Source of the DNA: Microcaldota archaeon
GTDB taxonomy: Archaea; Micrarchaeota; Micrarchaeia; Micrarchaeales; CABMGC01
Length of the DNA: 62,553 nucleotides
Reading direction: 5' to 3'
Assembly: GCA_028867335.1 (NCBI GenBank)
Contig: JAGWGN010000003.1
Coordinates: forward strand, 1 to 62,553
Both the position numbers and the translations under genes were made by a program. The notes below the pieces were generated by a model. The model was given only the letters and a program-made list of their open reading frames with translations, was not told the DNA's origin and did not search any database. This document shows, piece after piece, positions 4,903 to 39,408 of the stretch; the first letter of the stretch is position 1; the number at the start of each line of letters is the position of its first letter.

Positions 4903-4906
4903 TAGC

Positions 4907-7388: not shown

Positions 7389-7396
7389 TTTTTCAC

Positions 7397-10261: not shown

Positions 10262-10278
10262 TTGATTTACTTTAGTAT

Positions 10279-10318
10279 AAGATATATACTAAGATATACA
10301 GAATAAGATATATATACC
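10279..10318. repeat. Three direct copies of AAGATATA in the pilus operon promoter region
   Basis: AAGATATA at 10279, 10291 and 10305. Confidence 0.7.
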
Positions 10319-10405
10319 TTCCTAAAAGACGCTCAAAAAAAGATTTTTTGTTGCCCTTCATAAACAAAATATACGTTTATAAAACTTGATGGGTTATGTA
10401 TACAT

Positions 10406-10732
10406 ATGCCAGGAAAGGAGAGAGAAAAGGACGAAATCTGGAAGATAAGAAAGCTTCTCAGCAGGCCAAATTACGCCGTCCTAAAGCTGCTCATGGAGAA
10501 ATCCCCGCGAACGACAAGGGAGCTCTACCAAAAACTTGGCGGCAGCTTCACGCGGAAGACGCTCATCATCACGCTAAGGGACCTGTCAATGCAGCTAAAC
10601 GTGCTGCAGCCAACCCACATCAGAACGGACAGGGGCTACGGGCTTGGATACATACTCAACCCGAAGCTGAAGGAGATAATAAAGTCCGTGGAGAAGTTCG
10701 AGAAGATAGTCGAGAATCTGGGCGAGAACTAA
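10406..10732 (+). CDS. Winged-HTH transcriptional regulator
   Basis: LLMEKSPRTTRELYQKLGGSFTRKTLIITLRDLSMQLNVLQPTHIRTDRGYGLGY (HTH plus wing). Confidence 0.7.
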   Translation: MPGKEREKDEIWKIRKLLSRPNYAVLKLLMEKSPRTTRELYQKLGGSFTRKTLIITLRDLSMQLNVLQPTHIRTDRGYGLGYILNPKLKEIIKSVEKFEKIVENLGEN

Positions 10733-10757
10733 TCGCCGCTAGAGCAAGGTTTATTTC

Positions 10758-11474
10758 ATGATAACAAAGAAGCCGTACGTCATATCCGAGATAATAAAGG
10801 AGACGCCCGAGGTTAGCATCTTCAGGTTCGCAGCGCAGGACGGATCCACTCTAGGCTTTGACGCTGGAATGTTTGTTATGCTCTACTACAAGAACCCTGA
10901 GACAGGGGAGGAGATAGGCAGGGCGTTCTCGCTTGCCTCAAAGCCGGACGATAAGTACCTCGAGTTTGCAATCAGCATGATCCACGGAAGGTTCACCTCA
11001 AAGCTAGACACCGCAAAGGTTGGCGACATTTACTATGTTACAGGGCCTCACGGGCAGTTCAAATACGACCCTAACCAGAACAAGAAGGTCCTCTTTGTTG
11101 CGGGAGGCACTGGCGTAGCGCCGTTCCTCTCCATGCTCAGGCTCATTGCGGAAAAGAAGCTCGACACAGACATAAAGCTGCTCTACAGCATGCGATTTAC
11201 AACTGAGACAATCAGAAAGGACGAGCTTGAGGGCTACAAGAAGAGCCTCAAGTTCGAGATGACAAGGAGCGTAACAAGGGAGCAGAACGTGCCTGGATGG
11301 GACGGGGAGTACGGGCACATCGACGCAGCGATGATCTCAAGGCACGTCAGCGACCCTAAGGAGAGAACATGCTATGTCTGCGGACCGCTTAAGTTCACAA
11401 AAGCAATCGAGGCCGCGCTCGTCGAGCTCGGAGTCGACAAGGCAAACATAAAAGCAGATGTCTGGGGAGAGTAA
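10758..11474 (+). CDS. FAD/NAD(P)-binding oxidoreductase (ferredoxin-NADP reductase family)
   Basis: GRAFSLASKPDD, VTGPHGQF, VLFVAGGTGVAPFLSMLR, YVCGPLKFTKAIE. Confidence 0.88.
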   Translation: MITKKPYVISEIIKETPEVSIFRFAAQDGSTLGFDAGMFVMLYYKNPETGEEIGRAFSLASKPDDKYLEFAISMIHGRFTSKLDTAKVGDIYYVTGPHGQFKYDPNQNKKVLFVAGGTGVAPFLSMLRLIAEKKLDTDIKLLYSMRFTTETIRKDELEGYKKSLKFEMTRSVTREQNVPGWDGEYGHIDAAMISRHVSDPKERTCYVCGPLKFTKAIEAALVELGVDKANIKADVWGE

Positions 11475-12380
11475 TCAGGACTCCTGTCCTGCAATATAGA
11501 GAACTATCGCCTTCTCGATGAGCAGCTTGTTCTTTGCCTGCTCAAATGCTATGCTCTGTTTTCCATCCAGCACATCTCCCGTTATCTCCTCGCCCCTATG
11601 GGCAGGGAGCGGATGCATTACAACAGCCTTTGAATCTGCCATCTCCAGCACCTTCTTGTTGATTTGGTATGGCATGAAGAGCTTTCTTCTCAGGTCCGCC
11701 TCTGCCTCCTCGCCCATGCTAACGAATGTGTCTGTGTAGAGGACATCCGAACCCTCGACTCCCTCTTCTAGGTCGTCAAAGAGCTTGACTATCCCGTACT
11801 CCTTTGCCTTTGAGACGAACTTCACGTTAGGAACGTTCGCCTTTGGCCCGATGAGCGCAATCTCCATGCCCATCATCGCCCCTGCAATCATAAGGGAGTT
11901 GAAGGTGTTGTTTGCCGTGTCCCCGAAAAGTGCCATCTTTAGTCCCTTGAGCCTTCCCTTCGACTCGCGTATTGTGTATAGATCTCCCAGCGCCTGCGCG
12001 GGATGCTCCTGGTCTGTGAGCGCATTTATCACAGGGACGGTCGAGCTCTTTGCAATCTCAAGGAGCGTCTCGTGCCTATAGAGCCTGCAGATGATAAAGT
12101 CGACGTAGCTGCTGAGCACCTTTGCGGTGTCGCTCCAGGTCTCTCCCCTTGAGAGCTGTGTTGTGACAGGGTCGATGTAGATGTAGTTTCCGCCCAGCTG
12201 GGCCATCGCTACCTCAAATGAGATCCTGGTCCTTGTCGAGGGCTTTTCGAAAAGAAGAACTGCTATTGCTCCGGGCTTTAGTGCAAGCTCGCACTTTCCC
12301 TCCTTGAGCTCGTCTGCAATCTTGAAGATCTCCTCAATCTGCGACTTGGAGAAGTCCTCAACGCTAAGAAAATTCATCAT
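11475..12380 (-). CDS. argF: Ornithine carbamoyltransferase
   Basis: FEKPSTRTRISFEVAMAQLGG, DQEHPAQALGDLYTI, MHPLPAHRGEEIT. Confidence 0.92.
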   Translation of the reverse strand: MMNFLSVEDFSKSQIEEIFKIADELKEGKCELALKPGAIAVLLFEKPSTRTRISFEVAMAQLGGNYIYIDPVTTQLSRGETWSDTAKVLSSYVDFIICRLYRHETLLEIAKSSTVPVINALTDQEHPAQALGDLYTIRESKGRLKGLKMALFGDTANNTFNSLMIAGAMMGMEIALIGPKANVPNVKFVSKAKEYGIVKLFDDLEEGVEGSDVLYTDTFVSMGEEAEADLRRKLFMPYQINKKVLEMADSKAVVMHPLPAHRGEEITGDVLDGKQSIAFEQAKNKLLIEKAIVLYIAGQES

Positions 12381-15176: not shown

Positions 15177-15977
15177 ATGCACATAGAGAAGCTGCAGGTC
15201 GCCCAAAAGGATGATCGGCTGCTTAGGCTCTACAACTGCCCACCTACGCTGGAGAGGTTCTCGTCGCTGCTCACTAATTCTAGAAGGATAGAGCAGATAG
15301 CAAACGCGGTCCCCGATGCAAACAAGGCGAGCATCTGGAGGGACGAGATACTGCTCAAGAATTCCTACAGGCAGCCAAAGAGCATGGCAGAGGCATACTT
15401 CGTGCAGGCGCTTGTGAGGCTGCACTTTGACGTCTGGCTTGAGGCGGTATATTTCACAATGCCTGAGATAAACAGGATGTACCTCGCAGACATCTGGACA
15501 AACGGGGTGATAGACGGATCCAGGAGGGTCGTGTTTGACGTCCACGGGTTCAGGAAGATCAGGCAAAAGAACGCGGAGTATCAGTCCAACAACAATACAG
15601 AATACTCGGCTTACTACAAGCAATATTTCGAGAGGAAGGAGAAGGCGTATGTGGAGAAGATGGGCATAATGCACAGGTCTAACCCCCAGATCTACCTGAT
15701 AGTCGTGGCGGACGATTACAAGGAGGACTTCAAGAAGGTGTATGGGGTCCAGAACCTAAAGGACGTCTGCGATGAGTTTTGGCCCATGCCTGAGATGTTC
15801 GAGAGGAACCGAAGCGAGCTATCGGAATCTTTGGACCTAATTAGGATAAAGAATAGGATAAGGAAGCTCAAGAATAAGCACAACTTCAGGCTGGAGAAAA
15901 ACAGGGAGGTTGTGGAGAATGATATGAAGGAAACGATAAAGCGGGAGCTGAGAAAGAGCGTGGAATGGTTCCGCTAA
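15177..15977 (+). CDS. Protein of unknown function (266 aa)
   Basis: Long ORF with neighbour-like codon usage; no family recognised. Confidence 0.7.
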   Translation: MHIEKLQVAQKDDRLLRLYNCPPTLERFSSLLTNSRRIEQIANAVPDANKASIWRDEILLKNSYRQPKSMAEAYFVQALVRLHFDVWLEAVYFTMPEINRMYLADIWTNGVIDGSRRVVFDVHGFRKIRQKNAEYQSNNNTEYSAYYKQYFERKEKAYVEKMGIMHRSNPQIYLIVVADDYKEDFKKVYGVQNLKDVCDEFWPMPEMFERNRSELSESLDLIRIKNRIRKLKNKHNFRLEKNREVVENDMKETIKRELRKSVEWFR

Positions 15978-16270
15978 GGAATCTGTATTCCCCTTGCCTT
16001 GAGCTTCTCCTTGTCCATTATGCTGTATCTCCATGTTATGTCGCCCCTCTCATTTGACTGGACGACCCACGGCTTTACCAAAACTACATCCCCCTCCTTG
16101 ACCCAGAACCTCCTCTTTAGCCTTCCCGGAATTGAGCAGACCCTTATGTTTCCATCGGATCCTGCTACCTCGAACTTCGATGCGCCAAGCGCCCTTCGCA
16201 CTGTGCCTACAACCTCGTCCGGCCTTGGCATAGGCGTGCTCTGCGGTGCGTTCTGCTTTTGGTATTTCAT
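15974..16270 (-). CDS. eif1A: Translation initiation factor aIF-1A
   Basis: S1/OB fold: GTVRRALGASKFEVAGSDGNIRVCSIPGRLKRRFWVKEGDVVLVKPW. Confidence 0.93.
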   Translation of the reverse strand: MKYQKQNAPQSTPMPRPDEVVGTVRRALGASKFEVAGSDGNIRVCSIPGRLKRRFWVKEGDVVLVKPWVVQSNERGDITWRYSIMDKEKLKARGIQIP

Positions 16271-16281
16271 TTATCTCAATC

Positions 16282-16695
16282 CTAGTAATGCTTGATTGTA
16301 TATCTTGCTCCGCAAGCCTCGCAGACGATCGTGAGGAATCCCCTTGCGGATGACTCGACGTGCGTGTCTGGCTTGTGGCACTCCTTGCAGATGACGTAGC
16401 TCTCGAAGTACTTCTTGACCTTCGCGTTGATCACATCGCCGTTGACCTTTGCGCTGATGATCAGCCTCTGCTCCTCGATGCTCACCGGAGCTGCGAGCTC
16501 CTTTGTGATGTACTTTGCGATCTCTGTCTTGTCCCTTCTTGCGACGTCAGAGATCTGCCCGAAGTTCTTGAGTATAGTCTTTGCCCCCTGGATCATGGAG
16601 TCCGCTACAGGGATCTTGAAGTCGACGTTCTCGGCCGACAGGGTAGGCAGCTTGGCGAATGCCCTATCCAGTAGCTTATCGTAATTTGCGTCCAG
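16282..16695 (-). CDS. eif2b: Translation initiation factor aIF-2 beta, probable CTG start
   Basis: YDKLLDRAFAKLPTLSAENVDFKIPVADSMIQGAKTILKNFGQI...CKECHKPDTHVE...CEACGARYTIK; conserved N-terminus lies upstream of the first ATG; only CTG (16693-16695) precedes it before an in-frame stop. Confidence 0.85.
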   Translation of the reverse strand: MDANYDKLLDRAFAKLPTLSAENVDFKIPVADSMIQGAKTILKNFGQISDVARRDKTEIAKYITKELAAPVSIEEQRLIISAKVNGDVINAKVKKYFESYVICKECHKPDTHVESSARGFLTIVCEACGARYTIKHY

Positions 16696-16792
16696 AGGAA
16701 AAACCTACTCTATAATATCGCTTTTAAGGTTAATAAAGTGTTCTGTAGCCTTCCGCTCGCGAAAACAAATACTAAAAAATACTTATAAACCC

Positions 16793-16812
16793 TGCAAAGA
16801 GAGTACTTTGCA
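16793..16812. promoter_or_regulatory. Perfect 7-bp inverted repeat TGCAAAG-agagta-CTTTGCA abutting the start codon of the 718-aa ORF
   Basis: Direct reading; lies between TATA (cttataaac) and ATG. Confidence 0.45.
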
Positions 16813-18968
16813 TGGGGGATGCAAGAGGACTAAAAGACGCAGCGCAGCCTAGCCGAAGGGAACATAACACTCCCGAAGTTGCGGCTAAGATGGCGACTCT
16901 GAAGGCTCTGCTTAAGAAGCTAGACCCAAAGATCAAGAAGAAGGACCTGAACAGCAAAAGGGCCATTCAGATTCTGGCAGAAAATAATCTTGAGGAAATT
17001 CTCGAGAAGTATAATTCGGAGGAGCTCAGGAAAAAGATTGCGGTCAAGCTCCTTGACGAAATAAACAATGGAACAAAGCAGTGGTCTGAGAAGAGGGCGC
17101 TCAAGATGATTGAGACCCTGAAGCTTGAATCGGTACAGAAGTTGCTAAACAAACACCCTCCAAAAGACTCATCCGTGCTTGCCGAGGTGCTCATGGAGAA
17201 GTCCCACTCCTCTGGGATAGGCTACGCCTCGCATAGGGGATCGAACTTCTACCCGATGAGGAAGGACTCGATTGAGAAGGTGGCGCAGGTGCTTTTCCTA
17301 GACGAGGTAATGGCCCCGTTTTCCGGCTACGATTCGCGCATCTCTTGGGTAATGCTGATGCAGTACACAAACCAGCTCTTCACCTTCAAGCCCGAAAGGC
17401 TAAGAGAGCAGGCAGTGCAGTTCGCGCAGGCGCTCACGATTCCGCAGGTTATGGAGAACTTCAATAGGCTTGCGAGCATTGATGACAAGGCGACAATGAC
17501 CGCCGTGAGCAACCTTTTCATAGGGATGGGGAGGATGATGGACGTGGAGCTCTTTGGAGAGATTTCGTGCCTGCTTGGGAAGTGCAACCCGTACCTTGCC
17601 AGCGCAATAACTTTCGATTTAGCCCAGCACTTTGAAGGGCCAAAGAAGGACAGGGCAAGGATACTTGAGGTCGTAAAGCTGCTTGAGGACAAGGAGATAC
17701 TAGAAAAGCTGAACTCCAAGGTGGTTATGGGGATGTTTTACGCCACCTCGTTTACGGTAAATGCAGGGATGGAGTTCGGGGACAGGGCGATGATGATAAG
17801 GGCGATCAATTTCTACACCACGCATGAGAAGATGATTAGGCAGATGGAGGGGCTTGCCTGGACTGAAGGGGGAAGGGCGATCTGCAAGATAATAAAGCTG
17901 AACCTTGACGAGGTCTGCACAGACAAGCACGGCGTCAAGTGCGTTATGATGTACGCGGCCTCGGGAGGCGCGTTTCTCAGGCCGACAGAGCAGAATCTAA
18001 AGGGCTACGAAAAGGAGCTGCTTGCGCACCTGAAGAAGAAGTACGGGCTTGAGAAGGAGCTCACAATGGAGGAGATGGGCATGCTCTCGGGGCTTGGAAG
18101 AAACAAGATAAGAAAGGGAATCCAGATTATAAACGAGTCAAAGGACGAGTCTGTGAGGAGGTACTCTCTTGACAACCAGCAGCTGCTCATGCTCGACTAC
18201 ACAAGGGAGCAGCTCTCTGAATACGCGGCAATCGCACTCCTGGGATCTAGGGACGCAAAGAAAGAGGCGAAGGCGATTCAGATATTCTCTGAGATTTCGG
18301 GAAGGGACAAACTCAATCAGGCAAGAAATCAGCTGAATACAAAATACAGGGAGCTGAAGGCGAGCATCTTTGCGATGGCAAAGGCAAGCACCTCTGACGC
18401 CCTTCTCTACCAGCGGATCTGCGCGATGCTGGCAGGCGCCAAAAACGAATTGATAGGGGACGTTCTTGAGGGAATCAACTGCAACGACCTGTCGGTAAAG
18501 AACACAGGCTTTGTAAGGGCTGCGGAGAGCAAAAACATACTCGACTATGACAGCAGGGTTCAGATGGCTTGCGTATTTTTGCCACGAAGCAACGACATCT
18601 ACGGCTATGCTGCTGACAAGGAGATTGTGATGGTGAAGTACGAGATAGGCGAGAAGCGCCTGGGCGGAGCAATCTGCTCTGTCACGGGGGGCAATTTCCT
18701 GGTCGACTCGGTTGAGGGGCACAGGTTCTTTAGGAAGAGTGCGGTGTTTGAGATAGTGTTTAATGACCTGATTGAGAGGGCGAAAGAGAAGAAGGTAGAT
18801 AGGATAGTCTTCGGGATGGACGGTAACGGCGAGACCGCGAAGAAGTTCGTAGAGTATATCGAGAATAAGGGGCTTAGGGAGATGACGATAGAGTTTGCGA
18901 TAAAGGAAAACGTCTACCTTGAGACCGAGAAGGGGAGCAGGGCGCTTGCAATGGAGCTTAGGGACTGA
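16812..18968 (+). CDS. Large protein of unknown function (718 aa), possible C-terminal GNAT-like domain
   Basis: Helix-rich N-terminal about 500 aa; C-term ICSVTGGNFLVDSVEGHRFFRKSAVFEIVFNDLIERAKEKKVDRIVFGMDGNGETAKKFVEYIENKGL resembles a GNAT core (tentative). Confidence 0.8.
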   Translation: MGDARGLKDAAQPSRREHNTPEVAAKMATLKALLKKLDPKIKKKDLNSKRAIQILAENNLEEILEKYNSEELRKKIAVKLLDEINNGTKQWSEKRALKMIETLKLESVQKLLNKHPPKDSSVLAEVLMEKSHSSGIGYASHRGSNFYPMRKDSIEKVAQVLFLDEVMAPFSGYDSRISWVMLMQYTNQLFTFKPERLREQAVQFAQALTIPQVMENFNRLASIDDKATMTAVSNLFIGMGRMMDVELFGEISCLLGKCNPYLASAITFDLAQHFEGPKKDRARILEVVKLLEDKEILEKLNSKVVMGMFYATSFTVNAGMEFGDRAMMIRAINFYTTHEKMIRQMEGLAWTEGGRAICKIIKLNLDEVCTDKHGVKCVMMYAASGGAFLRPTEQNLKGYEKELLAHLKKKYGLEKELTMEEMGMLSGLGRNKIRKGIQIINESKDESVRRYSLDNQQLLMLDYTREQLSEYAAIALLGSRDAKKEAKAIQIFSEISGRDKLNQARNQLNTKYRELKASIFAMAKASTSDALLYQRICAMLAGAKNELIGDVLEGINCNDLSVKNTGFVRAAESKNILDYDSRVQMACVFLPRSNDIYGYAADKEIVMVKYEIGEKRLGGAICSVTGGNFLVDSVEGHRFFRKSAVFEIVFNDLIERAKEKKVDRIVFGMDGNGETAKKFVEYIENKGLREMTIEFAIKENVYLETEKGSRALAMELRD

Positions 18969-19018
18969 TTGTTCCGCTAAAAACAACGTTTCTTAAATGC
19001 TTGATTGCAAGTATTATC

Positions 19019-19276
19019 GGCAGCAAGGCTGGGAGCCAGGGGTTCCCAATCCGCAAATCCCCTTTAGGCGGGCCGCATGCTTGTCGAGTGTTACAGAGTA
19101 GTGCAAGGCCTAGGCCGAAGCGTTGAGGTTTCGCCTCTAGTGGTAGTTGCATATTCGAACCGGGCCAGGCCGGAAGGAGCAACCCTAAGTCTATGTTTAC
19201 TATGCTCTAGAGATACGGGGCTGAGTGTAGGCCTAGATAACCTTGCAGTGCGCTGCAATGCAAGGCGGCTGCTGCC
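19019..19276 (+). ncRNA. Archaeal SRP (7S) RNA
   Basis: Helix-8 signature GAACCGGGCCAGGCCGGAAGGAGCAAC (19155-19181); complementary ends ggcagc...gctgcc; about 258 nt. Confidence 0.85.
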
Positions 19277-19331
19277 ATTTGAGACTTGAAGAAGTAAGCT
19301 TTAAGTATTAAATTCGACATATTAATTGCGT

Positions 19332-19415
19332 GCCCAGGTCGCCTAGTGGTAGGGCGGCAGCCCGCTAAGCTGTTTGGTTGAAAGACCTTCGTGAGTTCGA
19401 CTCTCACTCTGGGCG
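19332..19415 (+). tRNA. tRNA-Ser(GCT)
   Basis: GCCCAGG acceptor, anticodon loop ccGCTaa, long variable arm, gagTTCGActctc T-arm, discriminator G. Confidence 0.9.
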
Positions 19416-19436
19416 CATTTTGTTTAACGTGATTGT

Positions 19437-19832
19437 ATGGTACAACTATCTGACAAGGTAAGAGAGCTGATTGACGGCAAGAACTTTGCGCACATCGCGA
19501 CAATCATGAAGGACGGATCGCCGCAGGTGACGACAGTGTGGATAGACCGCGACGGGGACACGATTCTGATAAACACCGCGGAGGGAAGGGTCAAGGAAAG
19601 GAATCTAAAGCGCGACCCGCGGATCGCAATCAGCATAACCAAGGGAGACAATCAGTACTCAGGGGCATGGATACGGGGAAAGGTCGTGGGAATGACGGCT
19701 GAAGGCGCCGTGGAGCACATAAACAAGCTCGCAAAGAAGTACACCGGAGCGGACAAGTATCAGGGCTATACTCCAAACGAAAAGAGAATCGTGCTTCGAA
19801 TAGAGGCTCAGCACATAACTGAGAGGCTCTAA
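19437..19832 (+). CDS. PPOX-class (FMN/F420-binding split-barrel) protein
   Basis: NFAHIATIMKDGSPQVTTVWIDRDGDTILINTAEGRVKERNLKRDPRIAISI. Confidence 0.85.
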   Translation: MVQLSDKVRELIDGKNFAHIATIMKDGSPQVTTVWIDRDGDTILINTAEGRVKERNLKRDPRIAISITKGDNQYSGAWIRGKVVGMTAEGAVEHINKLAKKYTGADKYQGYTPNEKRIVLRIEAQHITERL

Positions 19833-19870
19833 TCTAATTGTTTGGAAATTTATCGGCTCAGCTGAGCCTC

Positions 19871-19927
19871 TTTGAAATTAAAAATAGAAAGAAAAATAAA
19901 AAAAGAAAAAAGGGGAGTAATTACTCC
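19871..19927 (-). terminator. Palindrome plus T-rich tract downstream of the TRAM gene, candidate terminator
   Basis: Minus strand GGAGTAATTACTCC (19914-19927) overlapping the stop, then CCTTTTTTCTTTTTTTATTTTTCTTTC. Confidence 0.55.
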
Positions 19928-20283
19928 TCTGATTCTGTCTCCTCTGAGGAATCTTCTGATCCCTCATCGGATGGTGCTGCGCTTGGTGCTGATGCCGATC
20001 CAGACATTTCGCCGATTGCGAATCTTGCCTTTACATCGGTGATCTTGACCTGTACGGTCTCACCCTGCTTTGCGCCGGCTACGAAGATAACGAAACCGTC
20101 CTTCTTTGCTATGCCGTCTCCCTTGCTTGCGACTGCCTCGATTGTTACATCGACCACATCGCCAACCTTTACAGGCTTTGGTAGGAAGTAATTAGGCTTT
20201 ATGCCCATTCCTCCTCTCCTGTCTCCGCCTTCTCTTCCGCCACTGTTTGGCCTTCTTTCATATCTGTCTCCTTCCATGTTCAT
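19921..20283 (-). CDS. TRAM-domain RNA-binding protein with RG-rich N-tail and acidic C-tail
   Basis: VGDVVDVTIEAVASKGDGIAKKDGFVIFVAGAKQGETVQVKITDVKARFAIGE. Confidence 0.88.
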   Translation of the reverse strand: MNMEGDRYERRPNSGGREGGDRRGGMGIKPNYFLPKPVKVGDVVDVTIEAVASKGDGIAKKDGFVIFVAGAKQGETVQVKITDVKARFAIGEMSGSASAPSAAPSDEGSEDSSEETESEE

Positions 20284-20386
20284 CTTTTCTCTGTAGAATT
20301 AGCGATTTAACTCGCTTTACTACTTAACTATAATTAAGGGATTTGTTGTTTATAAGCTTATCGGTATCCGCGTTTATCGAGGGAAA

Positions 20387-21015
20387 TCAGCCGATTTTCC
20401 TCGCGAGCGCCTCAGTGCTTTCGAAGATGTAATCCGGCTTGCAGGCGCTTAGCTTTGAGTATGGATCCAGCCCCTTTCCGACCGCGCACACGCGCACCCC
20501 TGCAAAGCGCGCCATGAAGATGTCGATTGCCATATCCCCAATGTAGAGGCTCTTTTTCTTGGTCCCCCTCATCCTCTTTATGACCAGCTCCACCCCTGTG
20601 GGATTTGGCTTGTAGGCGCGGATCGTCTCTGCGCTGACTATCATGTCAAAGTACTTCTCCACCCCAAGGCGCCGCAGCTCCCTGTTGAGCCTGCCCTGCG
20701 CCCCGTCGCTAAAGAGCGCTATGGATTTCTTGTTTGTCCTAAGCTCCTCAAGCAGCTCTATAGTACCCTCCCTGAGCCTTGGCCTTGCAAAGAAGCTGTA
20801 GATGTCGTAGACAAAGTCAAGTGTCTTCGCCTCCCCCGCATCTAGGGCCCCGTTGATCTCCTTGGGCTGCCTGAACTCCTCCGGGTGCGCCCTTATGTAG
20901 TTTGGGTTGTATCTCCTCTTGAAAAAGTGGCTGAGCCTCACCACAAGGGTAGATGTGCTGAGCGTTCCGTCCCAGTCGAAAATGAAGAGATCGAAATCCC
21001 TAAGGAGAGGTTGCA
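20387..21015 (-). CDS. HAD-superfamily hydrolase
   Basis: FDLFIFDWDGTLST, SIALFSDGAQG, KPNPTGVELVIKRM, YIGDMAIDIFMARFAGV; start chosen at MQPLLRDF. Confidence 0.87.
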
Positions 21016-29550: not shown

Positions 29551-30528
29551 TTGATTCTAGGAATGCTGCTTTCAGAAATTTGTGACGATGAGAGTATGGC
29601 AGAATGCTTTGAGAAAATACCTGGAGAAGTTTGGGTCGGATGCGGGGATAGGAGAATAAATGAGGAATTGGATAGGTTGGCAGACGAAGAACATAAGTCT
29701 CACATGGTAGACATATTCACGCCAAGGAATGCTGCGGGAAACATTAAAAGTCTACCAAAAACAATTGAAAGACATATAAGGGAAAATCTGAAAGAAGACG
29801 GAACTTGTAATATCCAGAAGCTAAAGATAATAGGACACACGAAATGCGGTGCTTTAGACATCGTGTTCGACGTCTTGACGGGAAAAATGCAGGTAGACAT
29901 ACAGCTTAGAGAGGTCCTGATTAACCAGTATAAGGACTTCAAGGTTAATCTGGAGTTAAGCAGAGAAGAAAACTTGAGGGTACTAGAGAAGTTTCACCTT
30001 GAAAAACAGGAAGAAAATGCTCGGCAATTGCTTGATTATATCCAAACCAAGACGGGGATAAATACGAGTGGAATAATAATTGAGAGTATGCTTATCGATA
30101 CTGATGCCGTCGATAAGACCGAATCCCAGCCGGATTATAAAAACATGAGGTATGTGGTGGTGGTTGATACACCGCTGAAAAATAAAAAGTTTACTGGAGT
30201 TGTGGACCAGATTAGAAATACGGACAGATGTTGCAACAAATACACAACATATTTTTTCAATGTGGATCCGGAGGATTGCGCCACGGGATTGCAGATATTT
30301 GCCAGGCTAGGTGCTGAAAAGTTCTACGTTTCCTATGAAGAAAAGATAGATAATGCCAGAAAAGATGGCCTTAGTGTGGAGATGCTCCAAAGGGTCATGC
30401 AAGTTAGGAGTTCTGTATCACAAGTAAACAAGGACTCACAGGTAATACCGATTAAGACTGAGGGTTTGCACGAAAGCAATTTGCAATCATACAGAATCAG
30501 CTCTGCAATTAAGACCAAAGTGCACTAA
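29551..30528 (+). CDS. Divergent beta-carbonic anhydrase-like protein (325 aa)
   Basis: VWVGCGDRRI (CxDxR), TPRNAAGNI, LKIIGHTKCGALDIV (HxxC); TTG start or ATG 29563. Confidence 0.65.
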   Translation: MILGMLLSEICDDESMAECFEKIPGEVWVGCGDRRINEELDRLADEEHKSHMVDIFTPRNAAGNIKSLPKTIERHIRENLKEDGTCNIQKLKIIGHTKCGALDIVFDVLTGKMQVDIQLREVLINQYKDFKVNLELSREENLRVLEKFHLEKQEENARQLLDYIQTKTGINTSGIIIESMLIDTDAVDKTESQPDYKNMRYVVVVDTPLKNKKFTGVVDQIRNTDRCCNKYTTYFFNVDPEDCATGLQIFARLGAEKFYVSYEEKIDNARKDGLSVEMLQRVMQVRSSVSQVNKDSQVIPIKTEGLHESNLQSYRISSAIKTKVH

Positions 30529-30538
30529 GAGCATCAAA

Positions 30539-31060
30539 TCATTTGGACAGGGCCAACCCGGCCTTAAGAATTCCGAGCACAAGAGCGTATGGGGTGGGAG
30601 GGTTTCCAGGGACTCTTATAGCTACTGGCACCACTTCTTCTACTCTGCCGCTTTTGTACACTGCGCTGCTTTTTGAAAATAGTCCTCCGCTTACAGCCCC
30701 GTCACCTGCAGCAACAACAGCCTTAGGAGAGGGCATGGCAGCATACGTCTTTTCCAAAGCTCGTTTCATGTTTACAGAAACTGGACCGCTTACGAGCAGA
30801 ACGTCTGCGTGCCGTGGTGAGGCTGTGAAGTGTACTCCGAACCTCTCGCAATCAACCTGAGGCGAATTTGCAAGTCCCTCCTCAATCTCCACATCGTTGG
30901 AAGAACCGCAGTCTATCATCCTTACGGTGATTGAACGAGCAAATGGTGAAAGCGAGCGCTTCTTGAGCAGCTCGGCGATTTCTCTTATGACTTTGGAGTC
31001 CGAATCCTTGGAGATTTTGTCCGTTTTTGGATTTTTCAACAATGCGTGGAATTCATTCAT
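30539..31060 (-). CDS. HyfI/NuoB-like small subunit lacking all four cluster Cys
   Basis: DCGSSNDVEIE...VDCERFGVHFTASPRHADVLLVSGPVSVNM...GDGAVSGG...VPGNPPTP. Confidence 0.85.
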   Translation of the reverse strand: MNEFHALLKNPKTDKISKDSDSKVIREIAELLKKRSLSPFARSITVRMIDCGSSNDVEIEEGLANSPQVDCERFGVHFTASPRHADVLLVSGPVSVNMKRALEKTYAAMPSPKAVVAAGDGAVSGGLFSKSSAVYKSGRVEEVVPVAIRVPGNPPTPYALVLGILKAGLALSK

Positions 31061-31069
31061 TCTATCACC

Positions 31070-32623
31070 CTACAAATCTGCCCCCGAATATGAGAGATTG
31101 AAGCTTTTATTTATCAGAGGGAAATCGGCAATTATATTGGATTTTACGGCTTTCTCGATCGCCCTCCAGTTGCGGAAGGAGGCGGTTCTGATAGAAAGTC
31201 TGGCAAGCCTTCCTTTTTTCCCAAATTGAACCACAAACGTGCATCCTCCTCGCGGGGCTTCACATACACCTATCCCGAAGCTGCCAGATGGAATTCCGGC
31301 CAACGCCTTATCTGTTTTTGTAGCGACTGGACCCGATGGAATTTCATTTATCTCGGATGAGATCAGTCTAATCGACTCTTTCATTTCGCCGAGTTTGACT
31401 GTAAAGCGGGCAAGGACATCTCCATCTGAGGCAATGACCTCCTTGAATTGGCGCCTCGCATATGCGCCGTATGGAAGATGCCTGCGGATATCGCAACTTA
31501 TTCCGCATGCGCGGGCGGCGGGCCCTACAAGTGCAAGCTCCTTGGCAGTCTGAGGAAATACTCTTCCGGTGGTAAAGACCCTGTCCAAAAATGTTGATGA
31601 GGTCATTGTAAGGCCCTCGACCTGAAGCAAGTATCTGGAAAATTTGGCCAAGGCAGCTTTTAATCCGCCGAGTTTCTCTGGTGCGATGTTCCTAGAAACT
31701 CCCCCTATGACAACCAGATCTCTGAGGAAGCGGTTCCCGAATGTCGTTTCGTTGAGGCGCATCATTTCCTCCCTCAGCAAAAGAAACTGAGAAGAGGAGG
31801 CATAGTAGCCTATGTCCATGGACATCCCTCCTAGATCTGCAAGATGATTGTAGATTCTTTCCATCTCCAGAAGGATAAGACGTAGCGATTCGGAACGGGA
31901 TGGCACCTTTATTCCACATGCGCTTTCTATGGACTGGGCGTACGCTACGGAATTCGAGACAGATTCGTCACCGGATATCTGCTCGATTAAGGGGAGGAGC
32001 GTGGCGGCTTCCTTGTTCTCTGCGAGCTTCTCTGTGCCCTTATGTAGATAGGATAGACGCACTTCCAGTTTGTTAATTTTTTCACCTATCACATGAAACC
32101 TGAAATGTCCCGGCTCTATTATCCCTGCGTGCACAGGGCCGACTGGGATCTGGAACTCACCCTCCGCGCCGGTGCCTGCAAAGTTGTATCCTGATGCTTT
32201 GGGGGTTTTTTGCCTCTTCACAAATTTGGCACTCTCCGGATGAATTAGTATAGGACGCTGGTCCTGAAGGCCGATAAACTTTTTGCCTGATCTCTCAAGC
32301 ATTTTCCTCTCGTCCCAAACAGACCCGGGGATTAATTCGGAGATGGAGTGAAAAACGCTAGAGTGCGCCCAGAAAATTAGCATCTTGCCAAACTTTGGCA
32401 TGCGGAAAAGATACGCAGCTGCCCATTCCCCCGAACTGGAATAGGGGTATGCGAAACCGGAATCGAAAACGCCGCCACGGGTGAGGCATTGTGAGCAGGC
32501 CTCAGGGATTGCTTTCGGATCAGTCTGGACCCAAACGGCGGACTTGGAATCGGCAACCCTGAGCTTTTTGAGTACCGGCTCTTTTGCGAGTTCCTCGATG
32601 AATTTTTTGAGTTTCGTATCCAT
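31070..32623 (-). CDS. HyfG/NuoCD-like large subunit lacking all NiFe Cys ligands
   Basis: PVGPVHAGIIEPGHFRF, YLHKGTEKLAENK, IEQISGDESVSNSVAYAQSIE, ERIYNHLADLGGMSMDIGY, C-term SFNLSYSGADL. Confidence 0.88.
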   Translation of the reverse strand: MDTKLKKFIEELAKEPVLKKLRVADSKSAVWVQTDPKAIPEACSQCLTRGGVFDSGFAYPYSSSGEWAAAYLFRMPKFGKMLIFWAHSSVFHSISELIPGSVWDERKMLERSGKKFIGLQDQRPILIHPESAKFVKRQKTPKASGYNFAGTGAEGEFQIPVGPVHAGIIEPGHFRFHVIGEKINKLEVRLSYLHKGTEKLAENKEAATLLPLIEQISGDESVSNSVAYAQSIESACGIKVPSRSESLRLILLEMERIYNHLADLGGMSMDIGYYASSSQFLLLREEMMRLNETTFGNRFLRDLVVIGGVSRNIAPEKLGGLKAALAKFSRYLLQVEGLTMTSSTFLDRVFTTGRVFPQTAKELALVGPAARACGISCDIRRHLPYGAYARRQFKEVIASDGDVLARFTVKLGEMKESIRLISSEINEIPSGPVATKTDKALAGIPSGSFGIGVCEAPRGGCTFVVQFGKKGRLARLSIRTASFRNWRAIEKAVKSNIIADFPLINKSFNLSYSGADL

Positions 32624-32625
32624 AG

Positions 32626-34092
32626 TTACACCTTTATTAGCACTGCGATTGCCGCGTTGACCAGATTAGCGATAAGTGTGGGGGCAAGCAGACCTAGAAC
32701 GATTGCTAGCGCAAAGAGGCCCCATACGCACGCTAGCGTAAGGGAGTCCGGGCGATACTTCTTGGGCTTTTGTAAAATCGGGCCGAAGGCCATCCTAGAG
32801 GACCTGAAAAGGAATGTCCCGAATGCGATGGTGGTGAAGACCACCAAAAGCAAGACCACCAGATAGTTGCCGGTCGCAAGTGCCGCTGCCACAAGAACAA
32901 TCTCGGAGATGAACGTACCGAATGGTATACTGCCTGCAAGTCCGATGTTGGCAAGCACAAACACCTTGCCTATCGCAGGCATCACTGAGGACACACCGGT
33001 TATCTTAGATATCTCCTTGGTGCCGTAGACCTGATTTAGTATCCCGCCCAAAAAGAAGGCAAGAGGCTTTGCTATTGAGTGCGAGACAACGTGAAATAGT
33101 GCCGCAAACAGACCCAATGGGCCGCCCACCCCCACCGCAAGGGCGATTATCCCCATGTTCTCTACGCTTGAATATGCAAGCAATCGCTTGTAGTTGGTCT
33201 GGGAGAACAGCCTAAGTGACGCAAGTATCAGCGAGATTGCGCCGAAAGTGAGAAACAGCAAAGAGCCAAAGGATGATGTGCCTACGCTGCCAAAGAGGAT
33301 CGGGTATGCCCTGAGTATCGCGTAGAATGCTGTAACGAGAAGCACTCCCGAGAGCAGTGCGCTAACCGGAGTTGGCGCCTGTCCATGCGCGTCTGGAAGC
33401 CACTCGTGGAGCGGGACCAGGCCCATCTTCGTGCCGTATCCGACAAAGATGAACGCGAAAGCAAGCTTGAGGTATATTGGCAGGATTTGGTGCGAGCTGG
33501 CAAGCACATTGCTGAAGCTGAAGTTCACTGGCAATCCAGCCTGCTGCAAGCCGTATCCCAAAATCATAAGGCCGACTAGTGCCAGAGTAATGCCAAGTGA
33601 GCATATCACAAAGTACTTCCATGCCGCCTCGACGGAATCCTTGGTGCCGTAAAAGCTGATTAGAAACACGGACGTGAGCGTCGTGGCTTCAAGTCCCGCC
33701 CAGATCATCAAAAAGTCCGAGGCTAGGGTCACGAGGATCATGCAGGAGAGGAATGCGAGCAGCAGCGCGTAGTAGCTCCAAACTCTCTCCTCCTTGAATA
33801 TTCCCTCCCTTATCTCTTCTCTGAGGTATCCTCGCGAGTATACTATGACAAACAGAGTGATGGCAGTAGTGACTAGGGTGAATAGGAAACCCAGGGAATC
33901 CAGGTAGAGGAAACCGAACAGACCACTAACTGGCTGGGTGGAAAGGCTGCCAGTCATTCCAGAGACCAAAAGGGAGATTAAGGATAGAAGTCCGCCCGCC
34001 ATGGCAAGCCCTTCGACGACCTGCAGGTTCTTGCGGAAGAGCAATATTGCTGCAACGAACATCAACGGAATCAAAAGTATTAGTTCAATCAT
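32626..34092 (-). CDS. HyfF/NuoN-like proton-translocating antiporter-type subunit
   Basis: LASDFLMIWAGLEATTLTSVFLI, GTKMGLVPLHEWLPDAHGQAPTPVSALLSGVLL, SSVENMGIIALAVG. Confidence 0.9.
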   Translation of the reverse strand: MIELILLIPLMFVAAILLFRKNLQVVEGLAMAGGLLSLISLLVSGMTGSLSTQPVSGLFGFLYLDSLGFLFTLVTTAITLFVIVYSRGYLREEIREGIFKEERVWSYYALLLAFLSCMILVTLASDFLMIWAGLEATTLTSVFLISFYGTKDSVEAAWKYFVICSLGITLALVGLMILGYGLQQAGLPVNFSFSNVLASSHQILPIYLKLAFAFIFVGYGTKMGLVPLHEWLPDAHGQAPTPVSALLSGVLLVTAFYAILRAYPILFGSVGTSSFGSLLFLTFGAISLILASLRLFSQTNYKRLLAYSSVENMGIIALAVGVGGPLGLFAALFHVVSHSIAKPLAFFLGGILNQVYGTKEISKITGVSSVMPAIGKVFVLANIGLAGSIPFGTFISEIVLVAAALATGNYLVVLLLVVFTTIAFGTFLFRSSRMAFGPILQKPKKYRPDSLTLACVWGLFALAIVLGLLAPTLIANLVNAAIAVLIKV

Positions 34093-34101
34093 AATATCAT
34101 C

Positions 34102-35724
34102 TCATTGTTCCTCGAGCAGGTGGTCAAGATTCCTGCTATCCAGCCCCCCTATTGCATCGTTTACCTTGAAGGCGAGCACTAGCGCGACCACCACCAACGT
34201 GAGTATGTCGAAGAGGGTTGCAATCTCCCCGAAGAACGGTATTTGGAGCGAAAGTGCGGTTGGCAAAAGCACAAGGCCGTTCTCCAAGATTAGGAAGCCC
34301 ATTGCCTGCAAAAGCACGTGCGTTTTCGTTGCGATTATCAGCCCTCCAATCAGAATGATCGAAAATGCTACAGGCAAGAGTGGGTTGTGCACGCCGAGCA
34401 CCGCGGTTATCGAGTAGGAGAGTACTATTAAAAATCCGGAGAGTATCAGGCTCTTGGATACGCTTAGTGGTGAACCAAGGAATATTGGATCGACGTTCAG
34501 TATGTTCTTTGAGTCCTTCTGCAATGTGCTGAAAGCACGGACTAGCAGCAGTGGCAGTATGATGACCTTGAATAGTATCGTGGATCCCAGTCGCCAATAG
34601 GTGCTTGTGTCGCCAACTGTCAATGCAATCGATCCGAAGAGCAGGGCAAGTGCCACGCTCTGGACGATGTATATTTCAAGCCTCCTTTTGAAGGTTGCGC
34701 TGAAGAGGAAGTAGAGGGAGGTAGCAAGCATTATGAAAGGCAGGACCGCCTCAAAGCCGCCTGTCGGCAAATTGTTGAATATCTTGCTTAGGAATGCGAT
34801 GAGGGAGAGGAGCAGTGAGAATGTGAGGAGCTTCGGTATCTCGAAGAGCCTCCACTTCGGGGTTAGGCTCTCAAGCGATGCTGTGAGAACACCAAGCAGA
34901 AGAACAGTCAGTAAAAAGACGGCGGCTGAAAGTAGAGGACTGGAGGATAGTATAGGGAGGCCGAAGGGCAGGAAGAGTATTGCGAACAGGCCGAAGAATA
35001 CGACGGTCTTGGCTGCGTTAGCCCACTCAATCAGCGCAAGCAGCGGACCAGAATAGTCAAGGATCATCGCCTCGTGAACCATGGTGAGTTCCAAGTGGGT
35101 CGCAGGGTTGTCGAAAGGAAGCCTTCCAGTTTCTGCAAGTATTGCGATGAATAGGGCAATTCCTGCAAGCCAAAACGCAGGGGAGACCAGGATTCCGGGC
35201 CAGTTTGCAGCAGTCGTTGAAACCACAGAGGACATGCTCACGTTGCCATTTAGGGTGAATGCTGCGAAGAAAACAATCGCGGCGAAAAGCAGGGGCTCAA
35301 GAAGTATAGAGTATAGCATTTCTCGGCTAGCTCCGATTCCGCCAAATGCGCTTCCTGTGTCAAGGGCCGCAAGCGCGCTCATGAACCTGCCGATTGCAAA
35401 CAGGTATATGAACATGACCAAATCCGCGGCAATCAGGTTGTTTGGAAAGAGTATTGGTAGGACCATGGCGGCTAGGGCGACTGATCCGAAAAATGCTATT
35501 GGTGCCGCTATGAAAACCCAGGAGGAGGTCGAACTAATTACCATGTCCTTCATAAAGAGCTTGAGGATGTCTAGATAGGGCTGGTATATGGGTGCGCCAA
35601 TCCTGCTCTGGAAGCGCGCCTTCACCTTTCTCATCACGCCTACAAGTAGGGGCGCAATCAAAAATATGAATGCGACCTGAAGCACCGAGTTTAACACAGT
35701 ATTGTAATCCATATTAAATATCAA
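34102..35724 (-). CDS. Fusion of HyfC/NuoH-like and HyfE/NuoK-like membrane subunits
   Basis: N-half RIGAPIYQPYLDILKLFMKD, LAETGRLPFDNPATHLELTMVHEAMILDYSGPLLA; C-half VLLQAMGFLILENGLVLLPTALS. Confidence 0.85.
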   Translation of the reverse strand: MIFNMDYNTVLNSVLQVAFIFLIAPLLVGVMRKVKARFQSRIGAPIYQPYLDILKLFMKDMVISSTSSWVFIAAPIAFFGSVALAAMVLPILFPNNLIAADLVMFIYLFAIGRFMSALAALDTGSAFGGIGASREMLYSILLEPLLFAAIVFFAAFTLNGNVSMSSVVSTTAANWPGILVSPAFWLAGIALFIAILAETGRLPFDNPATHLELTMVHEAMILDYSGPLLALIEWANAAKTVVFFGLFAILFLPFGLPILSSSPLLSAAVFLLTVLLLGVLTASLESLTPKWRLFEIPKLLTFSLLLSLIAFLSKIFNNLPTGGFEAVLPFIMLATSLYFLFSATFKRRLEIYIVQSVALALLFGSIALTVGDTSTYWRLGSTILFKVIILPLLLVRAFSTLQKDSKNILNVDPIFLGSPLSVSKSLILSGFLIVLSYSITAVLGVHNPLLPVAFSIILIGGLIIATKTHVLLQAMGFLILENGLVLLPTALSLQIPFFGEIATLFDILTLVVVALVLAFKVNDAIGGLDSRNLDHLLEEQ

Positions 35725-35727
35725 CCA

Positions 35728-37728
35728 TCAGGCAATCAGGGCAAAACTTATCACTGCAATCAAAGTGACCAGCAAGTACAAAAGATAGTGCATCAGCTTT
35801 CCGGTGTGCAGCTTCCTAGACCATGGTGAAATCGTTAGGAAGACCCTTTCCAGTGGGTGGTAGAGCACCGCCTCAAAGAACTGATGGCCATAGGCGTTTC
35901 CCTTTCCGAGAGGGCCTACCGCGAATCCGAACGTCCTGATCACCGGCATCGAGAAGCCTTTGGCGGAGTACTGCATCGAACCATCAGTGTATGGAATTCC
36001 GCAATCCCAGGTTGGAATGGTATCGGGACTTATTGTTTTTGTCTTCTTCTTTAGAATGCGCAGGAAGGCTAGAAGAACTATCGTGATTATCAGTAGTGCG
36101 GCAAAGATCCAGAGCGTTGGAAGCGTGCCCGCCGTGTAGAAAATTGTCGCGGCTCCGGACATCTTGAGCTGCACGAGAATCGGGATGGAGAGTTGAGCAA
36201 TCGTTGTTGGGAAGAGCCCAGTGAATATGCAGGCGACTGCAAGTATTCCCATTGCGGCAAGCATCACATTGGAAGGATCCTTTGCGGACTCCACATTTTT
36301 GCTTCTTGGTGCGCCCAGGAAGGGGATTCCGAATGCCTTCACGAAGGCCGCAACAGCAAGCCCGCTGGTAAGCGCGAGGAAGATAATCGCAAGCGCCGAG
36401 CTAAACGAGATTGCGGCAGATCCGCCCATTCCGCCTAGAAGCGCAGTGAATGTCAGCCACTCGCTAACAAATCCGTTGAGCGGGGGAAGCGCGGCAATTG
36501 AGGCTGCGCCGATGAAGAAGAGAGGCGCGGTGATTGGCATCCTCTTTATCAGCCCGCCGAGCTGATCTATGTTTCCGGTATGGGCCGAACTGATTATAGA
36601 GCCTGCACCGGTGAAAAGAAGGCTCTTGAAGATGGAATGGTTCAGCGTATGGTAAAGCGCGGCGAAAAGCGCAAGGGCGGCGATTATCTCGAGCCCTGCA
36701 GACAAGAAAAGTATGGATGCACCTAAGCCTATTGCTATTATCCCGATATTTTCTATGCTGTGGTAAGCAAGCAGCGTTTTGAGATCGTGCTCCATCAGCG
36801 AATAAAGGACCCCAAGCACCGCAGAGATTACCCCAAGGCCCAGGAGCAGCACTCCCCACCACATCGGAGGTGCCGCAATGCCTACTGCAAGGAATCCGAA
36901 TACGACCCTCACAATCCCGTAGATTGCCGTCTTGAGCATGATACCGGACATGAGAGCGGAGATGTTGCTAGGGGCTTTTGGATGCGCGATTGGAAGCCAG
37001 ATGTGGAAGGGCATTATTCCTGCCTTCACCCCAAAGCCGATCAGGGCAAGCACGAACACAGCATCCTTTGCCACCGAAAGGTAAGTTGCATTTGCAAAGG
37101 CGCTGAAATCAAACGAGCCACCGGCGCCTCCTGCGAGTATCAGGTACATTATTATCAGGCATGCTGTGCCGAAGTGGGTCATCAGCAAATAGATGAATCC
37201 GGCGTTCTTGGAAGGCTCCTCCTTGTGCTCGAATGAGACAAGGTAGTAGGAGGATAGTGCCATCAGTTCCCAGAACACCAGAAAGACGAACGCGTTTTGG
37301 GCCGTGACCACGGCGGCCATTGAGAGAAGGAAGAAATTGAATAGGAATGCAAATTTTGCGGTGCTATAGCCTTTCTTTTTGTACTCGTCAATGTACCCTA
37401 ATGAATAGAGCGAGATGGATATACCGCCAAAGCCGATGAGCGCGGCGAAAAATCCCGATAGCGCATCAATCCCGAATCCAAGGTTCCCTAGAGGTGGGAT
37501 TGTGGCTAGCACTACAGGAGCAATCTGCATTCCAAAAAGCGCAAGAACCCCTGCGATTAGAAGGGTAAAGCTCGCGAGTAGCGAGAATCCCAGGCTTACC
37601 TTTTTGCACAGGCTGCTTTGCCTCCAAAACAAAATCGCGGATGCCAGGCCAAACGTAAACAGCAGTATTGATACTAGTAAGAGATTAGAAATAAGTCCTC
37701 CGACCGTGGTTATTGCATATATTGGCAT
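35728..37728 (-). CDS. HyfB/NuoL-like antiporter-type subunit
   Basis: AFVFLVFWELMALSSYYLVSFEHKE, VKAGIMPFHIWLPIAHPKAPSNISALMSGIMLK, HSIENIGIIAIGLG, TWDCGIPYTDGSMQYSAKGFSMP. Confidence 0.93.
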   Translation of the reverse strand: MPIYAITTVGGLISNLLLVSILLFTFGLASAILFWRQSSLCKKVSLGFSLLASFTLLIAGVLALFGMQIAPVVLATIPPLGNLGFGIDALSGFFAALIGFGGISISLYSLGYIDEYKKKGYSTAKFAFLFNFFLLSMAAVVTAQNAFVFLVFWELMALSSYYLVSFEHKEEPSKNAGFIYLLMTHFGTACLIIMYLILAGGAGGSFDFSAFANATYLSVAKDAVFVLALIGFGVKAGIMPFHIWLPIAHPKAPSNISALMSGIMLKTAIYGIVRVVFGFLAVGIAAPPMWWGVLLLGLGVISAVLGVLYSLMEHDLKTLLAYHSIENIGIIAIGLGASILFLSAGLEIIAALALFAALYHTLNHSIFKSLLFTGAGSIISSAHTGNIDQLGGLIKRMPITAPLFFIGAASIAALPPLNGFVSEWLTFTALLGGMGGSAAISFSSALAIIFLALTSGLAVAAFVKAFGIPFLGAPRSKNVESAKDPSNVMLAAMGILAVACIFTGLFPTTIAQLSIPILVQLKMSGAATIFYTAGTLPTLWIFAALLIITIVLLAFLRILKKKTKTISPDTIPTWDCGIPYTDGSMQYSAKGFSMPVIRTFGFAVGPLGKGNAYGHQFFEAVLYHPLERVFLTISPWSRKLHTGKLMHYLLYLLVTLIAVISFALIA

Positions 37729-37881: not shown

Positions 37882-38781
37882 CTAGTACATAGCTTCCAGC
37901 TTCTTTATCCTCTCCTCGATTGGAGGATGTGTTGAGAACAGGTTAGCGAAGCTCTCTGGTTTGAAGGGGTTTGCGAAGTAGAGGTTTGCGGTTATCTCGT
38001 TAACATTCTGCATCTGGGGGGTGTTCGGGTTCCTCTCGTAGTCGCGGATCTTCTTGAGCGCATTTGCAAGAGAGTGTGGGTCCCTTGTAAGTCTTGCGCC
38101 GTTCGCATCGGCCATATACTCCCTTTTCCTTGAGATTGCAAGCCTGATCAGCAGCGCAAAGAAAGGCGCAAGGAGACCTATAACAAATGCGATAAGTAGC
38201 AAAATCCCTCCGTTGCGGTTGTTGTCACCGCCCATCCCCCCGAAGAAGAAGATGTTCCTCATGAATGCTGACACTATTCCTATTGCGCCTGCGAAGACTA
38301 TCGCAATCGTCATGAACTGTACGTCGTTGTCTGCGACATGGGACATCTCGTGTGCAAGCACTCCTGTGAGCTCGTTTCTGCTCATGATCGAAAGAATCCC
38401 TGTTGTGACCGCGATCGATGAGAGCTTCTTGCTCCTTCCCGTTGCAAACGCATTGGGAGTCGGATCCTCGATTATGTAAACCTTGGGCATCGGTATCTGG
38501 GTTGCGGATGCAAGCCCCTCGATTATCCCGTATAGGCCCCTGTATTTTGTCGGATCCGCAAGCTTTGCGCGCGAGACCGCAAGCACGAGCTTGTCTCCGG
38601 TGTAGTAGGTCACAAGTGCGTAGATTATGACAAGTAATATCGCAAGGCCAAACGAGATTGGGCCCCCGCCCAAAAACACAACGAACAGGTAGATGACGGC
38701 AGTGAAGAATGCTGAGAACACGGCCATCAGGAGGAGTGAGTTTATCCTGTTCCTAGCTATTTCGTCGAAGAAACTCGTCAT
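37882..38781 (-). CDS. htpX: HtpX-type M48 membrane metalloprotease
   Basis: ELTGVLAHEMSHVADNDVQFMTIA, REYMADANGARLT, FSTHPPIEERIKKLEAM. Confidence 0.95.
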   Translation of the reverse strand: MTSFFDEIARNRINSLLLMAVFSAFFTAVIYLFVVFLGGGPISFGLAILLVIIYALVTYYTGDKLVLAVSRAKLADPTKYRGLYGIIEGLASATQIPMPKVYIIEDPTPNAFATGRSKKLSSIAVTTGILSIMSRNELTGVLAHEMSHVADNDVQFMTIAIVFAGAIGIVSAFMRNIFFFGGMGGDNNRNGGILLLIAFVIGLLAPFFALLIRLAISRKREYMADANGARLTRDPHSLANALKKIRDYERNPNTPQMQNVNEITANLYFANPFKPESFANLFSTHPPIEERIKKLEAMY

Positions 38782-38793
38782 CTGCCCACGTTA

Positions 38794-39408
38794 TTATTTC
38801 CTTGGCCTTTTCGGCCTGGCCTGCTTTGATGGCTTTGCTGGCTGGCTCTCGTCCTCGTCTTCGAAGTCGACCTTTACCGGGGCCTTCTCCCCCTCAGGCG
38901 TCTGGAAGAACTCCTGCCTTCCAAATCCGAAGATTCCTGCGAAGAAGTTTCCAGGGAACTGCTGAATCGCATTGTTGTAGTCAAGAACGTAGTCGTTGTA
39001 TGAGGTCCTCACAAACGAGATTTTATCCTCGGTGGTCTCAAGCTGGTCCTGCAGCTCCTTGAAGTTTGCAGAGGCTTTGAGGTCAGGGTAGCTCTCCGCT
39101 ACGGCGAAGATGCTCTTGAGCGCCTTTGTGAGCTGGTCGTTTGCCTTGAGCCTATCATCGGTTGATCCGGTGATTATCGAGCTCCTTAGCCTTGTGACCT
39201 GTGTGAGCACGCTCTTCTCGTACTTCTTGTAGCCCTTGACTGTCGCAACAAGGTTTGGAATGAGATCGTATCTCCTCTTTAGCTGGACGTCTATCTGTGC
39301 CCATGCATCCTGAACCCTGTTGCGCTTTGAGATAAAGCCGTTGTAAGTCAGGACTATGATTGCTACAATCACTACCACTATTCCCCCGATTATCCATAGG
39401 ATGTCCAT
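38794..39408 (-). CDS. lemA: LemA family protein
   Basis: YNGFISKRNRVQDAWAQIDVQLKRRYDLIPNLVATVKGYKKYE. Confidence 0.95.
   Translation of the reverse strand: MDILWIIGGIVVVIVAIIVLTYNGFISKRNRVQDAWAQIDVQLKRRYDLIPNLVATVKGYKKYEKSVLTQVTRLRSSIITGSTDDRLKANDQLTKALKSIFAVAESYPDLKASANFKELQDQLETTEDKISFVRTSYNDYVLDYNNAIQQFPGNFFAGIFGFGRQEFFQTPEGEKAPVKVDFEDEDESQPAKPSKQARPKRPRK

Follow-up and report, generated by a model that had tools for sequence, protein, structure and literature searches.

Energy-converting-hydrogenase-related (Ehr) complexes are reportedly those described by Marreiros et al. in 2013. We consider here an operon of this kind, hyf, which occupies positions 30539-37728 of a 62,553-nucleotide stretch of DNA from the metagenome-assembled genome of a Microcaldota archaeon (Micrarchaeota in GTDB; contig JAGWGN010000003.1; hereafter the window), and which appears to have dispensed with redox chemistry. 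To our knowledge, the ligands of the N2 [4Fe-4S] cluster in the small subunit are typical of Ehr and are not part of the published definition. Ehr complexes are known to lack the NiFe ligands and their roles are unknown (PMC6349859, PMC10432482).

Two other systems invite comparison. Anderson et al. (2009; PMC2686161) reported a hyf-type operon from Methanospirillum and Methanosarcina with a large subunit that lacks the NiFe cysteines. It encodes a putative membrane-bound hydrogenase (Pmh) and occurs in Methanospirillum hungatei (Mhun_1817-1822) as well as in Methanosarcina acetivorans and M. mazei. The passages of that paper devoted to the operon give nothing on the small subunit, and Pmh is likened to the window's operon by description, not by sequence. 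In the DAB complexes a NuoL-like subunit and a beta-carbonic-anhydrase-like (beta-CA-like) subunit together form a gradient-driven carbonic anhydrase (CA); DabA2 carries a C/D-R/H/C set, with the His and Cys of the Zn site 15 residues apart (PMC13144422). Genes labelled hyf have also been placed near a beta-CA in Acidithiobacillus caldus (PMC3826726) and, under the label of an H2-evolving hydrogenase, near a CA in Methanospirillum (PMC11346949), the Cys state not having been checked in either.

The initial annotation listed five closely spaced minus-strand genes in the window, and family searches bear this out; the open reading frames (ORFs) are separated by 9, 2, 9 and 3 nt.

30539-31060, minus strand: hyfI, small subunit, NuoB/HycG-like, 173 aa (PF01058, Oxidored_q6, 5e-21)
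31070-32623, minus strand: hyfG, large subunit, HycE/NuoCD-like, 517 aa, without NiFe ligands (PF00346, Complex1_49kDa, 3e-43)
32626-34092, minus strand: hyfF, antiporter-like subunit, ion-path Glu/Lys/His kept (PF00361, Proton_antipo_M, 2e-47)
34102-35724, minus strand: hyfC-hyfE fusion, NuoH-like over residues 15-310 (PF00146, NADHdh, 5e-41) and HyfE-like over residues 328-536 (NF008556, 7e-16)
35728-37728, minus strand: hyfB, antiporter-like subunit, ion-path Glu/Lys/His kept (NF005086, 9e-185)

We treat hyfC and hyfE as one fused gene because the last third of the HyfC protein, at its C-terminus, matches the HyfE-type family NF008556. Proton_antipo_M has two matches in the operon, each about 1e-47. 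Antiporter-like and NuoH-like membrane subunits thus stand together in one operon, as in Ehr. Among solved structures, HyfG and HyfI come closest to subunits of Escherichia coli formate hydrogenlyase and Pyrococcus furiosus membrane-bound hydrogenase (HyfG against the HycE chain 7z0s_E, 5e-57).

All four NiFe ligand columns of HyfG and all four N2 ligand columns of HyfI are substituted, as the initial annotation had proposed. The fold is preserved, and so is the ion path through the membrane. Columns 217/220/511/514 of HyfG read S/E/S/G and columns 54/57/121/153 of HyfI read S/V/G/N. A Cys-bearing group 4 hydrogenase from the same phylum has CCCC and CCCC at these eight columns. The positions concerned are as follows.

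31964-31975, minus strand: HyfG residues 217-220, SGDE, replacing the N-terminal NiFe motif CGxC
31082-31093, minus strand: HyfG residues 511-514, SYSG, replacing the C-terminal NiFe motif CxxC
30899-30901, minus strand: HyfI residue 54, Ser (Cys in 59/61 other Ehr read)
30890-30892, minus strand: HyfI residue 57, Val (Cys in 60/61 other Ehr read)
30698-30700, minus strand: HyfI residue 121, Gly (Cys in 60/61 other Ehr read)
30602-30604, minus strand: HyfI residue 153, Asn (Cys in 60/61 other Ehr read)

HyfG thus lacks the two CxxC motifs of a [NiFe] group 4 hydrogenase, and the operon has neither the NuoB N2 cluster nor the NuoI ferredoxin-type subunit of respiratory complex I. The position of the complex I quinone Tyr is apparently Gly in our manual alignment.

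The substitutions are a property of the lineage. Searching 302 Micrarchaeota genomes with HyfG gave close matches in 15, and a 16th shows hyfB at a contig end; a scan of genome contigs with a single protein gave no matches. Ligand columns could be read in 14 aligned operons, and Cys is present at none of the eight columns in any of them. The replacements are near-invariant: SGDE and NxSYxG in HyfG, and GS[SP]NDVE, GDGA and GNPP in HyfI. At 217-220 of HyfG the Ser is found in 13/14 and the Glu in 14/14; at 511-514 the Ser is found in 13/14 and the Gly in 14/14. The five-gene order is conserved among these operons; in most of the pairs compared, HyfI has the highest amino-acid identity of the subunits. 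In HyfB, HyfF and HyfC, the charged residues of the ion path are retained in nearly all of 29 sequences. The ratio of nonsynonymous to synonymous substitution rates (dN/dS) is 0.07-0.32 in close pairs, indicating purifying selection. Decay or mis-sequencing of a hydrogenase operon, for which the absence of all eight ligand Cys might speak, is hardly credible. It is refuted by identical replacements in all relatives, by these dN/dS values and by the intact reading frames of several families and of the methanogen-type clade described below.

To place the operon we scanned GTDB genomes with the HyfG alignment, which gave at least 580 candidate stretches; the best 80 were read, together with plasmid examples. 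Altered HyfG motifs without NiFe Cys are common to all Ehr read. The Micrarchaeota operons share with them the HyfB/C/E/F/G/I set, the antiporter-like membrane arm and an HyfG with SGD and NKSxNxSYSG in place of the NiFe Cys, and their HyfG is nested among Ehr in the tree. They differ in the fusion of hyfC and hyfE and in HyfI, where all the N2 Cys are lost. All four are kept in 59/61 Ehr with a readable HyfI outside the Cys-free and partial-loss groups, compared with 0/14 in Micrarchaeota and 0/7 in what we call the methanogen-type loci. The latter, seven in number, are the one other fully Cys-free lineage among the matches read, and comprise a Methanosarcina (L056), another euryarchaeote, two Methanoregula, a Bathyarchaeota, an Altiarchaeales and one Dehalococcoidales member. 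Their HyfG has the same Ser and Glu at 217-220 (7/7 each), and their HyfI motifs are GSDNxTE, GDDA and GNPP. No Cys occurs at the four NiFe columns in 21/21 rows of the Cys-free groups. We found no statement on loss of the N2 cluster from an Ehr small subunit in the open-access papers covered.

The 14 Micrarchaeota and seven methanogen-type sequences fall into a single clade of the HyfG tree (SH-aLRT 99), within N2-bearing Ehr. The HyfB tree does not decide on this grouping either way (p-AU 0.197), and the replacement residues differ between the two groups, so that either one or two losses of the Cys are possible. Since a Methanosarcina sits in the clade, Pmh probably belongs to it.

Other departures were seen among the loci read. 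Loss of the N2 Cys is partial in three candidate-phylum bacteria; by inspection, candidate phyla radiation (CPR) Ehr of this kind lie by F-type ATP synthase genes (L073, 1-1867; L102, 2803-3231 and 16136-20973). A divergent Ehr small subunit on an Allomeiothermus silvanus plasmid (L047, 9260-10132) has independently lost all four. The Altiarchaeales locus L063 has two tandem hyf-type operons (4667-11833 and 15601-20627), the second showing HyfB, HyfC, HyfE and HyfF as far as the locus reaches. In four public plasmid records (L046, L048, L050 and L052) large subunits without NiFe Cys are labelled NADH-quinone oxidoreductase subunit C or nickel-dependent hydrogenase. In L036 a 1287-aa ORF with intein-splicing, LAGLIDADG and T2SSE domains adjoins hyfI (5148-9011).

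The host genome (0.96 Mb) is 83% complete, so that absences from it are not final. Within this limit, the NiFe large-subunit family PF00374 has no match and HypD was not found, and the candidate of a second hydrogenase or Hyp system was rejected. The operon holds no HyfH gene, as first noted, and a genome-wide check placed Fer4 matches only in a separate complex I cluster (L031) on another contig. No second hyf copy was found; the other HyfG-like match is the complex I NuoD. HyfB/F/C/G/I and NuoL/M/H/D/B of this cluster are of common ancestry, but in complex I the NuoB Cys set is intact and the cluster includes a Fer4 subunit, neither of which holds for hyf. The host is therefore able to make Fe-S proteins, but hyf makes no use of them.

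We are confident that hyf encodes a conserved, redox-free five-subunit membrane complex of the Ehr kind. The initial annotation had called it an extreme Ehr member with a cofactor-free peripheral arm; that description holds and extends to a fixed state of the whole lineage. We judge it rather likely that Cys-free Ehr has an ion-coupled, non-redox function. The HyfG-HyfI arm would hold no metal or Fe-S centre, and the old active-site cavity may have been remodelled into a polar, non-metal site. This site, or a partner docked on it, could couple a non-redox reaction to the flow of H+ or Na+ through HyfB and HyfF. The likeliest reaction would be the interconversion or vectorial capture of CO2/HCO3- with neighbouring proteins of the beta-CA family, for which the NuoL-like DabB acting with the beta-CA-like DabA in DAB complexes may serve as a model.

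Our attention was drawn to carbon by the neighbouring genes: because the operon usually lies beside CA-like genes, the complex may move ions for CO2/bicarbonate, not electrons. ORFs were scored for a beta-CA signature (CxDx[RK], then RxxAG). In Micrarchaeota it occurs in 9/52 within 3 kb of hyf versus 0/48 at greater distance (Fisher p 0.003), and in about 1% of those in the vicinity of other Ehr. By hand count a beta-CA-like gene of one of several sub-families lies within 3 kb at 13/16 Micrarchaeota hyf loci, those of G230, G277 and G057 having none nearby. A tandem family, c4, is found near hyf in G003, G005, G006, G007, G012, G013, G014, G020 and G024, and a second, c15, in G024, G025 and G060. 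A Pfam-level Pro_CA gene immediately follows hyfI in G024, and a CMDFK-type protein lies 38 bp from hyfI in G146. Family c4 is present in 10/16 hyf genomes versus 7/286 of the rest (Fisher p 9e-11, without correction for relatedness), and adjoins a classical beta-CA in two genomes without a hyf match. A true beta-CA adjoins the Cys-free operon of a Methanoregula. In the window itself the neighbour is the following gene.

29551-30528, plus strand: CAL, beta-CA-like gene, convergent with hyfI, membership of the hyf system uncertain (Pro_CA 6e-5, just under the cut-off)

The CAL protein retains CxDxR and GHxxCG. Scores against a small beta-CA profile are 42 for CAL, 37 for c4 and 34 for c15, the best of 17 control families reaching 24 or less; the CMDF type, with 24, is barely above its controls.

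DAB combines a NuoL-like subunit with a beta-CA-like protein that has the C/D-R/H/C set and two beta-CA-like domains; the layout of c4 is similar, and its His-Cys spacing is also expanded. Unlike DabA, the CAL, c4 and c15 proteins scanned have no match to PF10070. HyfC/E/F/G/I are without a DAB counterpart, and the CA-like proteins of hyf are neighbours that are not always present.

Of the options first raised for the complex (ion channel, antiporter or carbon transporter), the neighbourhood would favour the carbon transporter. Our best overall explanation, which we put forward tentatively, is that a redox-free Ehr links an ion gradient with a reaction other than redox, the likeliest being the handling of CO2/HCO3-. 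That carbon is the substrate of Cys-free Ehr is, taken by itself, a somewhat more doubtful suggestion, made by analogy. We think it rather unlikely, if worth stating, that, in Micrarchaeota and methanogens, five-subunit Cys-free Ehr and beta-CA-like proteins form an ion-gradient-coupled CO2/HCO3- converter that arose independently of DAB and NDH-1MS, a machine of the complex I type wholly given over to work other than electron transfer.

Several observations weigh against a role in carbon handling. A congener, G117, has CAL in the same gene block (ThyX, GlyA, HtpX, LemA, TMK, CAL, Tgl-like, HSP20 and FEN1 are common to it and the window) without hyf, and CAL relatives occur in 54/302 genomes, nearly all without hyf. 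Contact between CAL and hyf in the window is for these reasons not evidence by itself, and as a proof of a carbon role it was set aside. Since hyf is near FEN1 in G146 too, the arrangement suggests an old location of hyf, later lost in some genomes. The neighbour pattern is partly shared synteny within two families, and chromosomal neighbourhood does not prove joint function. At six of the seven methanogen-type loci the operon has no beta-CA next to it, and CA genes are not enriched around ordinary Ehr. The c4 fold prediction is poor (pLDDT 44, a partial model from two alignment rows); Foldseek returned no significant match for it, with several beta-CAs among the weak ones. No activity is reported for any Ehr member in the literature covered. 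The c4 profile found no match among PDB sequences, and AlphaFold gave no usable model of CAL alone (pLDDT 33).

Flanks of a different character were recorded elsewhere. ArsR-type helix-turn-helix proteins and SulP are the commonest recognised families in ordinary Ehr flanks. The former, the more frequent, lie upstream of hyfB in L060, L061, L075, L078, L082 and others. SulP-type anion permeases lie by Cys-bearing Ehr operons (L089, 6939-9140; upstream of hyfB in L093, L096, L107, L118 and L129), at loci that belong to Acidobacteriota, Bacteroidota and Gammaproteobacteria. A LemA-HtpX pair adjoins the operon in the window (37882-39408) and likewise an Ehr operon in Saganbacterium (L115, 10132-11634).

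A serious rival, though one we think unlikely, is that the complex is simply an antiporter for H+/Na+ or an ion channel, serving pH or sodium homeostasis, with HyfG-HyfI as a gate or regulatory cap and no carbon involved. The retained ion-path residues fit this, as do the cation P-type ATPase-like proteins seen by sequence inspection near four Ehr loci and the ATP synthase genes at L073 and L102. It does not account for the beta-CA-like neighbours or for the polar, near-invariant motifs where the active site used to be; inspection of the operon and flanking ORFs, with no dedicated profile search, recognised no MrpE/F/G-type genes.

We consider it improbable that the complex is still redox-active, its built-in centres lost and an unlinked flavoprotein or ferredoxin docking on HyfG-HyfI to give electrons or drive conformational coupling. 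One proposal pairs ordinary Ehr with formate dehydrogenase modules (PMC6349859), and in Methanospirillum fdhAB and fdhC occur in the same region as hyf (PMC11346949). Against this, the empty N2 and NiFe columns leave no built-in electron acceptor centre, no Fer4 protein was found in the host outside complex I, and the quinone Tyr has apparently gone.

Ehr complexes are found in hundreds of genomes and their task is open. Cys-free Ehr are open to testing, since PMC2686161 records a homologous operon, Pmh, in genetically tractable species of Methanosarcina. A lineage that has given up the last Fe-S cluster, with all else under selection, separates the conserved task of Ehr from electron transfer and provides a natural experiment in which the membrane arm of complex I would be driven without redox chemistry.

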